Positions 4,002-23,151 of a DNA stretch of 35,866 nucleotides are shown piece after piece. Under the pieces are notes generated by a model. The model was not told where the DNA came from and did no database searches. It was given only the letters and a program-made list of their open reading frames with translations. Numbering within the stretch: position 1 is the stretch's first letter; each line of letters opens with the position of its first letter. This DNA comes from Geobacteraceae bacterium (GTDB lineage: Bacteria > Desulfobacterota > Desulfuromonadia > Geobacterales > Geobacteraceae), in assembly GCA_017861285.1 (NCBI GenBank), contig JAGFXO010000003.1:1-35866 (forward strand), written 5' to 3'. The translations under genes were made by a program, and so were the position numbers.

Positions 4002-6212
4002 ATGAACAGACCGTTGTTTACCGAACTTGTCAATATCGAATCCATCCAGAAACTGCTGGAAAGCAATTACAAAGTAACGGGGTCTCTTTCGGCCATTCTG
4101 GACACAGAAGAAAACATTTTGGCCGCGGCCGGCTGGCAGAAAATCTGTACCCGTTTCCATCGCGCCTATCAGGCATCCAGTGCATTATGCCGCGAAAGCG
4201 ACGCTTACATTAAGCAGCACCTGCACGACCAGAACCGGGGATTCCTGGAATACAAGTGCAAGAACGGCTTGCAGGAAGCCGCCCTGCCGATCATGGTCAA
4301 CGGGGAACATCTGGCGACCTTTTTTATGGGGCAATTCTTTTACGATGACGATAAACCGGACGAGGAATTTTTCCGGAGAAGGGGCAGACTGTACGGGTAC
4401 GAGGAAAACGCCTATCTGGATGCTCTCAGACAGGTCCCCGTGCTCACCAGGCAACGGCTTCAGAACATAATGGAATATAACCGTAACCTGTTGGAAATAC
4501 TGGCCGAAATGGGAATGAAAAACCTGCTGCTTGCCCGGGAGGTAACGGATCGGAAAAGAGCCGAGCAGGAAGTTCAGGAGTCAAAGGACTTCCTGAGCAA
4601 GATTATCAACACCATTGCGGATCCGATATTCGCCAAAGACCGCAACCACCGGATAATACTGGCGAATGACGCCGAATGCGACTTGGCCGGCTTCAGGCGG
4701 GAAGAGATAATCGGCAGGACCGACTATGATTTTTTCCCCCGGGAACAGGTTGATGTCTTCTGGGAAAAAGACGAACTGGTTTTCGAAACGGGGCGGGAAA
4801 ATATCAACGAGGAAGAAATAACCGATGCACAGGGCAAAAAGCGGACAATAGTAACCAAGAAAACGCTCTTGAATGACAGTAGCGGTCAATCGTACCTCGT
4901 GGGAATCATCCGCGACATCACCGGCATAAAACAAACGGAAAGGGCTCTGCGCGCACTCAACGAGGACCTGGAAAAAAGGGTTGCCATGCGAACTGCCGAT
5001 CTGGTCGCATCGAATGCCAGTCTTTGCCGGGAGATCGACGAGCGTTGCCGAGCTGAGAAGGACCTTCTGGAAAGCAAGGAGAAATACAAGGCCATACTGG
5101 AGGCCATCGACGGTTACGTTTACATATGTTCACCCGATTTTCGAATCGAATTCATGAACGGAAAGTTCATTGAAAGGACCGGCTACGACGCCACGGGCGA
5201 GCTCTGCTACAAGGTGTTGCACGAACGTGATTCAGTCTGCCCCTGGTGCGTAAACGAGCAGGTATTCCAAGGGAGGACAGTCCGTTGGGAAATTCAGAGC
5301 CCCAAGGATCGGCGCTGGTATTATGTAGTCAATACCCCTATTTACCATACCGACGGGTCAATATCCAAGCAGGCCATGATCCTCGACATAACCGACCGCA
5401 AGTCTGCCGAGGAACAGCTCAAGAAGAAAAAGGAAATGCTCGAGGCTTTGAACTGCACCCTGGAAAAAAGGATCCGGGAGGAAGTTGCGAAGAACCGGGA
5501 AAAGGATTCTCTGCTGATCCAACAGAACCGTCAGGCAGCTTTGGGTGAAACCCTGGAGCATATCGCCCATCAGTGGAAACAGCCGATCAACACTGTTTCA
5601 CTGTTGATCCAGGACCTGGAGGAATCGTACTCGTCAGGAGAGTTGACGGACACGTATTTTCAAGAAACTGTCAATAAAATCATGTCCGTAACCGGCCATA
5701 TGGCCGACACCATCAATGTGATCAGGGATTTCTACAAGCCGGACAGGGAAATGAGTGTATTTCGCATCGGTGATTCGATTCACCGGGTCCTTTCGTTCAT
5801 CGAGCCTGCGTTTCGCTACCTGGGCGTCTTTGTCAGGCTCGATGTTGCCGAAGAATTGTTTGCGGCGGGATACCCAAAGGCCTACGCACAGGTAATCCTC
5901 AACATACTGACGAATTCGCTGGACGCTTTCAGGGAAAACAAGGTTTCTGATCCCGCCATCACCATCAGGGCGTTCGGGGAGGCCGGCAAATCGGTTGTAA
6001 CCATAACGGACAATGCCGGTGGAATCCCCGAATCATTCATTGACAGAATTTTCGATTTATATTTCACAACGAGGGAGTCGAAAGGCGGCAGCGGCATTGG
6101 ACTCTACCTCTCGAAAAATATCATTGAAAAGAAAATGGGGGGCACAATGACCGCCACAAACGTCGATCACGGGGCACAATTCAGAATCGAACTCGCAACG
6201 CCCAGGTCGTAG
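4002..6212 (+). CDS. PocR-PAS-PAS sensor histidine kinase
   Basis: Cytoplasmic-looking sensor kinase of 736 residues with no transmembrane span. Order: PocR ligand-binding domain (about 8-180; VNIESIQKLLESNYKVTG start and ALPIMVNGEHLATFFMGQFF core); PAS (about 195-310); a coiled coil (about 312-365); a second PAS (about 365-475); HisKA with phospho-acceptor H523 in IAHQWKQPIN; HATPase with the N-box ILNILTNSLDAF and G-boxes TDNAGGIP and GGSGIGL. The second PAS has a Cys/His cluster (CYKVLH, then CPWC) that could bind metal or be redox-active. An upstream in-frame ATG exists at 3888, but 4002 has GGAG close by and begins the conserved PocR sequence. PocR domains are thought to bind small organic ligands. 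An unknown gene follows after 28 bases; no response regulator is adjacent. Confidence 0.93.
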   Translation: MNRPLFTELVNIESIQKLLESNYKVTGSLSAILDTEENILAAAGWQKICTRFHRAYQASSALCRESDAYIKQHLHDQNRGFLEYKCKNGLQEAALPIMVNGEHLATFFMGQFFYDDDKPDEEFFRRRGRLYGYEENAYLDALRQVPVLTRQRLQNIMEYNRNLLEILAEMGMKNLLLAREVTDRKRAEQEVQESKDFLSKIINTIADPIFAKDRNHRIILANDAECDLAGFRREEIIGRTDYDFFPREQVDVFWEKDELVFETGRENINEEEITDAQGKKRTIVTKKTLLNDSSGQSYLVGIIRDITGIKQTERALRALNEDLEKRVAMRTADLVASNASLCREIDERCRAEKDLLESKEKYKAILEAIDGYVYICSPDFRIEFMNGKFIERTGYDATGELCYKVLHERDSVCPWCVNEQVFQGRTVRWEIQSPKDRRWYYVVNTPIYHTDGSISKQAMILDITDRKSAEEQLKKKKEMLEALNCTLEKRIREEVAKNREKDSLLIQQNRQAALGETLEHIAHQWKQPINTVSLLIQDLEESYSSGELTDTYFQETVNKIMSVTGHMADTINVIRDFYKPDREMSVFRIGDSIHRVLSFIEPAFRYLGVFVRLDVAEELFAAGYPKAYAQVILNILTNSLDAFRENKVSDPAITIRAFGEAGKSVVTITDNAGGIPESFIDRIFDLYFTTRESKGGSGIGLYLSKNIIEKKMGGTMTATNVDHGAQFRIELATPRS

Positions 6213-15250: not shown

Positions 15251-15399
15251 GGTATAAAAAAAGACCTTTACCTTTGGCATCAGCACCCAAGATAAAGGTC
15301 TTGCTTGCGAAATCAACGCCCCCTGCCCGGGCTCGAAAGCCGTATTGACGGGCCGGAAGTCAGCCTTTTCTCCGGCTGATAGCTACTCCCCTTTACAGG
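15251..15399 (-). ncRNA. yybP-ykoY (Mn2+) riboswitch with terminator
   Basis: On the minus strand the RNA begins near 15398 and contains the class signature GGGGAGTAGC (15382-15391). It continues with a TCAGCC/GGCTGA hairpin, a CCGTCAATAC segment, a GGCT-TTCG-AGCC stem-loop (15330-15341), and GGGCGTTGATTTC with CAAGACC at its 3' side. TAAAGG (15390-15395) can pair with CCTTTA (15293-15298) as the closing stem. Alternatively AAGACCTTTA (15293-15302) pairs with TAAAGGTCTT (15261-15270), followed by T7, an intrinsic terminator. The two pairings exclude one another, so metal binding should allow read-through. UPF0182 starts about 70 bases downstream. Known riboswitches of this class turn genes on with manganese. 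Confidence 0.87.
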
Positions 15400-15404
15400 C
15401 AGCG

Positions 15405-15434
15405 AGATTACCGTGAACAGGAAAACCTTGTCAA
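15405..15434 (-). promoter_or_regulatory. Promoter of the Mn-riboswitch operon
   Basis: On the minus strand, TTGACA (15429-15434) and TAATCT (15405-15410) are 18 bases apart. The predicted start near 15398 falls just upstream of the riboswitch aptamer. Confidence 0.75.
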
Positions 15435-15464
15435 GCCATTTTTCTTCTCCCGGGACGGGGGAAA

Positions 15465-18231: not shown

Positions 18232-18302
18232 ACTAAACAGGGCAAAACCATTTGATTTGACACGAAAAAATCAGCTTTCAGGAATTTAGTTAATTCATCG
18301 CT

Positions 18303-18390
18303 GGGGGAGTTTAGGCTGAGAGTCCGTTCCAGAGAGTGTAACGGGCGACCCTTTGAACCTGATCCGGATAATTCCGGCGGAGGGAAGCGT
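18303..18390 (+). ncRNA. TPP riboswitch (THI element)
   Basis: Contains GGGGAG, then GCTGAGAGT, ACCCTTTGAACCTGATCCGG, and GGAGGGAAGC, the conserved core of the thiamine pyrophosphate aptamer in the right order. It precedes thiS, thiG and thiE. The terminator 25 bases downstream makes this a transcriptional off-switch. Confidence 0.97.
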
Positions 18391-18415
18391 GCTTGTTGGG
18401 GACACCACCTAGAAT

Positions 18416-18439
18416 AAGGCCGCTTCGCGGCCTTTTTTT
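18416..18439 (+). terminator. Riboswitch-controlled terminator
   Basis: AAGGCCGC-TTCG-CGGCCTT stem with a tetraloop, followed by T7. It lies between the TPP aptamer and thiS. Confidence 0.9.
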
Positions 18440-21903: not shown

Positions 21904-22401
21904 CTAGAAGCTGTGAAAGACACCAAGACCGAAATGGAAAACCGGGGTGGTCCGGTACATCTGTTCTGGCTTCCAAAGATAGAGTTCTTTTATGTCGAGC
22001 ACCGGATAGGTATAGTCAATCGTGTCAAGGGGCAGGGTCCTTTTCCCCGTGACCTCCCCGACAATACTGACCATCATACCGGGTTTGAAGATCAGGGGAT
22101 CGAGGAACCCTTTGCCGTAAGCCAGGAACCTGCCGCCGGAAACTGCCGAATCCACCGGCTGGCCTTCCTCCGTAACCGGGAATTCAACCACTTCAAGCTC
22201 GCCGCCCTGTACGGAATTCTTCACCCCGGCAATTGTTCCGCCGATGAGGACATTCCTGCCGACATATTTCACCGGATTGTCCTTGATCATGGCAAAGGAA
22301 AGGCCCGGATCAACAAGCTTCAGGGCCTCCGGGCTGAAAACCCGAGGAACGCAACCCGGTAAAAACAGCAACATGCAAAACAGAAAAATCAAGGGTCTCA
22401 T
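21904..22401 (-). CDS. Slp-family outer-membrane lipoprotein
   Basis: 165 residues with a signal peptide ending in a lipobox (LFLPGC, Cys17), typical of lipoproteins. The mature part resembles the Slp family induced in stationary phase and acid stress (YVGRNVLIGGTIAGVKN, GRFLAYGKGFLDPLIFKPG, TYPVLDIKELYLW). ATG with GGAGG seven bases before it. A TTGACA with only a poor -10 lies upstream. Monocistronic. Confidence 0.88.
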   Translation of the reverse strand: MRPLIFLFCMLLFLPGCVPRVFSPEALKLVDPGLSFAMIKDNPVKYVGRNVLIGGTIAGVKNSVQGGELEVVEFPVTEEGQPVDSAVSGGRFLAYGKGFLDPLIFKPGMMVSIVGEVTGKRTLPLDTIDYTYPVLDIKELYLWKPEQMYRTTPVFHFGLGVFHSF

Positions 22402-22558
22402 TGAACACCTCCGGTGTTTTCTTCTTTCATCTTCCCACTGTTCCGTACCTTGTCAAGGGGCAAGGAAACGCAGAAAGAGTAACCGTCCCGGCTTTTTGGG
22501 GTCGACATCTGTCAGCGGAGCTATTTATATTTATTTAAAATTAAAAAGTTTATTTTTG

Positions 22559-22587
22559 TTGAAATAAATTAAAATATAGAGTATACA
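22559..22587 (+). promoter_or_regulatory. Promoter for an 80-nt transcript
   Basis: TTGAAA (22559-22564) and TATACA (22582-22587) with an ideal 17-base spacer in an AT-rich stretch. Predicted start near 22594. Confidence 0.7.
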
Positions 22588-22592
22588 GAAAC

Positions 22593-22673
22593 AATAACTA
22601 ACCTCCTTGTTATGTGCCCCGAAGAGGCAGTCAACGAATGCTTTTATACGTTGCTGATTTCGGGGTTTTTTTT
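22593..22673 (+). ncRNA. Candidate small RNA or leader with anti-Shine-Dalgarno loop
   Basis: The predicted transcript has a first hairpin ATAAC/GTTAT (22594-22613) whose loop contains ACCTCCTT, the complement of a strong Shine-Dalgarno. It ends in a long terminator: CCCCGAA (22617-22623)/TTCGGGG (22659-22665) with an inner CAG-CAACG/CGTTG-CTG stem, then T8 (22666-22673). No plus-strand gene lies nearby upstream. It is either a trans-acting small RNA or an attenuating leader for the DUF2784 gene starting 125 bases on. I see nothing else in 22402-22797 apart from a TTGACA for slp. Confidence 0.55.
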
Positions 22674-22797
22674 ACCTTCGGCAGAATCGGCCGGTGAGAA
22701 TACTTGTAATGACGGTATAATCATGTAACGCATCATTTTTACGGCTGAAAAAACTTGGATGGAAAGATCTTGATTCCAAGGCCTGCGGGGTTGAGGG

Positions 22798-23151
22798 ATG
22801 TTCTATGGTGTGCTTGCCGATAGCGTAGTAGTGCTGCACTTCCTCTGGATCGCGTTCCTGGTTTTCGGCGCCATTTGGGGAAAGAAAAACCACGTGGTGC
22901 GCATGGTTCACGTTCCGGGGCTCATCTTTGCCTGTTTTCTCGAGATTTTCGGCTGGTACTGCCCGCTCACCTATCTCGAGATCTGGCTCCGGGCGAAACA
23001 GGGGCCGTCCCATGTGTATGCAGGGTCATGTATCGCCCATTACCTGGAAAAAGTTGTCTACATTCAGATTCCCCGCGGGGCACTCGTATTGCTCACCATG
23101 CTCGTTTTACTCTTCAACGCCTTGATATACCTGCGCGGCAGGAAGAATTGA
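22798..23151 (+). CDS. DUF2784-family membrane protein
   Basis: 117 residues with about four hydrophobic helices. It matches DUF2784 by its start (ADSVVVLHFLWIAFLVFGA) and the conserved H-x-PGLIFACFLEIFGWYCPLTYLE block. Function unknown. The initiation site is not strong (GAGGG immediately precedes the ATG). It converges on the small regulator gene, 13 bases apart. Confidence 0.85.
   Translation: MFYGVLADSVVVLHFLWIAFLVFGAIWGKKNHVVRMVHVPGLIFACFLEIFGWYCPLTYLEIWLRAKQGPSHVYAGSCIAHYLEKVVYIQIPRGALVLLTMLVLLFNALIYLRGRKN

Follow-up and report, generated by a model that had tools for sequence, protein, structure and literature searches.

The window (the whole stretch of 35,866 nt that was analysed) carries on its plus strand a short intergenic element which may be a lineage-specific, free-standing, terminated transcript, and which is a candidate anti-Shine-Dalgarno small RNA. 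The probability of this reading is put at about 0.4. From the sequence we infer that RNA polymerase would start in or just after an AT-rich stretch, between approximately positions 22538 and 22594, and that transcription would end at a terminator at 22673. The product would be non-coding and between about 78 and 134 nt long. A mostly unpaired ACCUCCUU could then pair with GGAGG ribosome-binding sites in mRNAs and block their translation. Such an action would resemble that of the anti-Shine-Dalgarno loops of the alpha-r14 (NfeR1) sRNAs, and perhaps that of the terminator loop of the atoC RNA in the same genome.

A base-pairing small RNA had been proposed at this locus in the initial annotation. 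The orphan terminator, the AT-rich start region and the accessible anti-Shine-Dalgarno 8-mer agree with that proposal, and because of these three features a small RNA fits better than a gene leader. On the other hand, the element is unconserved, its predicted pairing is unselective, and the promoter and hairpin are poorer than had been stated. By itself the element would be one more lineage-specific candidate anti-Shine-Dalgarno sRNA.

Terminator, AT-rich stretch and promoter-like sites

The element is located between two divergent genes, an Slp family outer-membrane lipoprotein gene (positions 21904–22401, minus strand; PF03843, 1.4e-36) and a DUF2784 gene (positions 22798–23151, plus strand; PF10861, 1.6e-21). 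Read along the plus strand, the intergenic region has an AT-rich stretch, the box TATAGAGTATACAGAA, ATAACTAACCTCCTTGTTAT and a long hairpin with a run of eight T residues. The hairpin is an intrinsic terminator (positions 22616–22673), with a long interrupted stem at 22616–22666 and the T run at 22666–22673. It stands alone between the two genes and points at the DUF2784 gene, whose start codon is approximately 125 nt further on.

The terminator is as strong as originally described. Its 85-nt fold has a delta G of -24.8 kcal/mol with a z-score of -3.33, and none of 200 shuffled sequences folds equally well. It ranks 47th among 2519 crude terminator-like sites in a sample of the same genome that consists of 120 stretches plus the window (1,309,561 bases, about half the genome). 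A screen for orphan sites with a crude gene caller found 615 terminator-like sites that pass -15 kcal/mol in this sample, 366 of them inside genes. The window terminator is one of 25 divergent-intergenic sites that have no same-strand gene before them. Two of the 25 belong to known RNA elements, a TPP riboswitch (terminator at 18433) and an atoC RNA on contig C37, and several others resemble missed genes. The TPP riboswitch (RF00059, 65.5 bits) is at positions 18293–18402 of the window, plus strand, and its terminator is followed by a small open reading frame and thiG.

The AT-rich stretch (positions 22519–22585, no strand assigned) may be an UP element or a divergent promoter region. At its extreme 55 of 60 nt are A or T, a value reached at only two places in the 1.31 Mb sample, this one included. 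The other is in a divergent intergenic region of contig C61 (positions 1632–1790), with a bidirectional terminator about 150 nt on. An isolated terminated transcript is plausible at the window locus because the orphan terminator is strong, the start region is AT-rich and the same screen recovers known RNAs.

The element has its own terminator, and its candidate promoters are only 9/12 or 10/12 matches to consensus. The site first described as an ideal promoter, TTGAAA-17-TATACA (positions 22559–22587, plus strand), is less than that: it matches at 9 of 12 positions, its -10 box lacks the final T, and its score is reached once per 624 positions under a simple matrix. Sites on either side of it score higher under the same matrix. 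One is TCGACA-18-TATATT (positions 22502–22531, plus strand, 10/12), which would launch an RNA of about 134 nt. The other is GTGAGA-16-TATAAT (positions 22694–22721, plus strand, 10/12), which is 3' of the terminator and is a candidate promoter of the DUF2784 gene. The proposed transcript size of about 80 nt is reproduced if the start is at 22594 (about 78 nt), but a start at 22538 would give about 134 nt. A plus-strand open reading frame of 38 aa spans the terminator; neither it nor any of three further small frames has a Pfam match up to E 1, and the 38-aa frame has no relative among 37 other genomes.

The anti-Shine-Dalgarno motif and its predicted pairing

The 8-mer ACCTCCTT is at positions 22601–22608 on the plus strand and is the sole copy in the window on either strand. 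A single copy is unsurprising, as chance would supply about one copy of any 8-mer in 72 kb of strand. The genome sample has 53 copies in 2.62 Mb of strand, approximately one per 49 kb; 11 are in same-strand genes, 19 in opposite-strand genes and 8 at ribosome sites of opposite-strand genes, with 15 elsewhere. Three classes of orphan terminator, 145 sites in all, were scanned for the 8-mer within 110 nt upstream, and the window terminator alone has it. The shorter CCTCC is not enriched before the divergent orphan terminators, where its frequency (4 of 25) is about what the overall frequency predicts.

The motif is in the loop of a weak hairpin, ATAAC-TAACCTCCTT-GTTAT (positions 22594–22613, plus strand). 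This hairpin, which had been thought to display the motif, is marginal: its delta G is -1.3 to -1.7 kcal/mol and 8–19% of 1000 shuffled sequences fold equally well, which is not significant. The motif is nevertheless predicted to be mostly unpaired, with a probability of 0.63–1.0 for assumed 5' ends at 22538, 22588, 22590 and 22594. With an assumed 5' end at 22596, the first two bases have a probability of 0.2 of being unpaired.

Pairing of the 5' region (positions 22594–22616) was modeled against 939 start regions, 249 of which have GGAGG. A delta G of -12 kcal/mol or better is found for 313 of the 939, compared with 137.5 on average and 308 at most in a shuffled-seed control (n = 30). The neighbouring genes are not favoured in the ranking of the 939, with Slp 262nd and DUF2784 504th. 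With regard to the earlier suggestion that the RNA could mask the GGAGG sites of several targets, the motif is predicted to pair with ribosome sites generally, and this pairing is unselective and points to no specific target.

Conservation and alternative explanations

Conservation of the loop in relatives, which had been proposed as a check, is absent in the DNA, covariance model, 20-mer and contig pattern searches. A DNA search of 58 genomes, including the source genome, shows only short chance pieces of the element elsewhere. A covariance model, which is weak in that it was built from a single sequence entered as two identical rows, finds only the element itself among 141 genomes of the order, apart from one match (genome G127) at E 0.15. 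Among 395 genomes sampled from the phylum it finds the element itself and one match (genome G517) at E 0.01. Both matches were rejected as unrelated terminators that follow a gene.

Pattern searches gave a similar result. The first gapped pattern allowed a gap of 55 and left out the element's own copy, which needs 57. Its 21 rows were rejected, as they resemble unrelated terminators, coding sequence or the ribosome sites of genes on the opposite strand. Another gapped pattern gave 14 stretches from unrelated taxa in a wider genome contig collection, where about 14 are expected by a hand estimate that assumes uniform composition. A 20-mer search with three mismatches over the 141 genomes gave 32 places including the own copy, against 25 for the reversed control by the author's count; only the own locus among 30 loci examined has a stable terminator after the 20-mer. 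The element is without a match in plasmids and phages, and a protein scan with DUF2784 over the wider genome contig collection found nothing. The only other genome of the genus in the comparison lacks matches to Slp, to DUF2784 and to the rubrerythrin encoded nearby, under the thresholds applied. The initial annotation took a sequence unconserved apart from the terminator as evidence against a small RNA. By these sequence comparisons, which used a weak single-sequence model and few close relatives, the element is largely in that state.

This lack of conservation in every search is also what would be found for an incidental, non-functional short transcript, in which an anti-Shine-Dalgarno 8-mer happens to lie between an AT-rich promoter and a terminator whose role is to keep the divergent promoters insulated. 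There are 25 orphan divergent terminators in about half the genome, and by the author's estimate the likelihood that chance alone puts the 8-mer into any of about 25 such elements is in the region of one percent, for a motif picked after looking. Nevertheless, both the terminator and the AT-rich stretch rank near the extreme end of the genome sample, and lineage-specific sRNAs are common. An incidental transcript is considered rather unlikely.

The second alternative, suggested from the outset, is that the element is a leader or attenuator of DUF2784, in which a signal would be needed for transcription from the AT-rich stretch to pass the terminator. The terminator does face the gene, ending some 125 nt before its start codon, and a competing CCUC:GAGG pairing is the best fold of a partial transcript to 22660. 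This competing fold has a delta G of -13.1 kcal/mol, however, compared with -24.8 kcal/mol for the terminator, and the promoter-like site at 22694–22721, between the terminator and the gene, can serve DUF2784. In relatives, the 15 DUF2784 loci examined (14 genomes) all lack such an element upstream. Rfam has no riboswitch or leader that matches here at gathering score, and up to E 5 there are only weak, chance-level rows. Attenuation is a weaker explanation than a small RNA and is improbable.

Quite improbable as well is the reading in which the plus-strand motif is meaningless and mirrors a minus-strand ribosome site in the Slp leader (positions 22550–22608), where AAGGAGG (22608–22602) is well spaced, at 7 nt, from a TTG that opens a 14-codon frame (22594–22550), since although 8 of the 53 sampled copies of ACCTCCTT are clear opposite-strand Shine-Dalgarno sites and 19 more are inside opposite-strand genes, the peptide would have only 14 residues and a TTG start, the minus strand has only weak promoter-like sites upstream of this frame, and the T run of the terminator is on the plus strand only.

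The atoC RNA and other anti-Shine-Dalgarno RNAs

The candidate small RNA has a possible link to the atoC RNA. The orphan element on contig C37 is an atoC RNA (RF01733, 85.1 bits; positions 15354–15445, plus strand), and it shares TATA[G/T]AGTATACAGAA with the window element (15 of 16 nt; positions 22575–22590, plus strand, in the window), on the same strand and 80–86 nt before the T run. There are exactly two copies of AGTATACAGAA in the genome sample; a third, on contig C149, was dropped as it has no terminator nearby. The match to C37 is the best local alignment of the window start region among the 24 other divergent orphans, and is equalled by 39 of 1000 dinucleotide shuffles when all 24 comparisons are allowed for. 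The start box is absent from the other 29 atoC loci compared, so that it is shared within this genome and not family-wide. As a resemblance in sequence, the shared box is suggestive only.

The window element is not itself an atoC RNA. The atoC model gives no row at window positions 22400–22850 up to E 5, and ACCTCCTT precedes the terminator stem and is not in the terminator loop. The only rows in the source genome are C37 and contig C52. The latter is a second, diverged atoC-like RNA (positions 5932–6039, minus strand) that scores 32.9 bits, below the cut-off, and has a clean terminator with the loop TTAACCCTCCTT.

RF01733 is found in 130 of the 141 genomes of the order and is over the cut-off in 124. 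The 30 best-scoring loci among these matches were examined. In all 30 the terminator loop contains CCCTCCT and a T run comes after it, and 21 have a promoter of 9/12 or better within 70 nt upstream. An upstream opposite-strand gene is common to 21 of the 30 (the one member read is a transglutaminase-like protein) and a downstream same-strand gene to 20 (the one member read is an iron-hydrogenase-like protein). Clustering leaves 10 without the downstream gene, some perhaps from contig ends or crude choice of open reading frame. The C37 copy keeps the upstream gene, and the usual downstream gene is missing within about 1.1 kb.

The atoC RNA is labelled cis-regulatory, in delta-Proteobacteria, in Table 1 of PMC2864571, and Rfam also labels it cis-reg. 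Beyond that paper, the literature search returned only an algorithm paper (PMC3765529) and nothing on the function of the atoC RNA. Because the CCCTCCT loop is present in 30 of 30 loci and the downstream gene is missing beside the copy in this genome, the atoC RNA looks like a free-standing anti-Shine-Dalgarno sRNA, a reading that appears to fit better than the cis-regulatory label. If it is a trans-acting sRNA, then what is at present classed as a cis element is a conserved global translational regulator of a whole bacterial order. The window element thereby leads to a larger point, namely that RF01733 is present in nearly every genome of the order, with an anti-Shine-Dalgarno loop that is invariant in the 30 loci examined, and that the copy in this genome persists where the usual downstream gene is missing. 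A broader proposal, which is speculative and improbable, is that the lineage uses a set of anti-Shine-Dalgarno sRNAs headed by a trans-acting atoC RNA, with the window element as a recent, differently built member that is confined to one genome and has copied an atoC-type start region.

Two other groups of anti-Shine-Dalgarno sRNAs can be compared with the window element. The NfeR1/alpha-r14 sRNAs of rhizobia likewise have the motif in unpaired hairpin regions, and occlusion of ribosome sites would be expected of both. NfeR1, which has been tested experimentally, bears three copies of an identical CCUCCUCCC motif and is conserved across many related rhizobia (PMC10746234), whereas the window element is a candidate predicted from sequence, with one motif and no relatives. 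The csRNAs of the CiaRH regulon in Streptococcus are also small, hairpin-rich RNAs with an unpaired anti-Shine-Dalgarno stretch. They have in addition an anti-start-codon sequence, a position between two stem-loops and control by CiaR (PMC3091779); these traits are established for the csRNAs only, and the taxa are unrelated.

The third comparison is with the atoC RNA. Both RNAs are small, end in a terminator, expose a CCUCC motif in a hairpin loop and are present in the same genome, where the C37 copy matches the start box of the window element at 15 of 16 nt. They differ in architecture: in the atoC RNA a conserved TTGCGA hairpin comes first and CCCUCCU is in the loop of the terminator, whereas the window element has ACCUCCUU in a weak hairpin before the terminator. 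They differ also in distribution. Of the 141 genomes of the order, 124 have an atoC RNA over the cut-off, and the window element is found in its own genome only. The window element may work like the atoC RNA.
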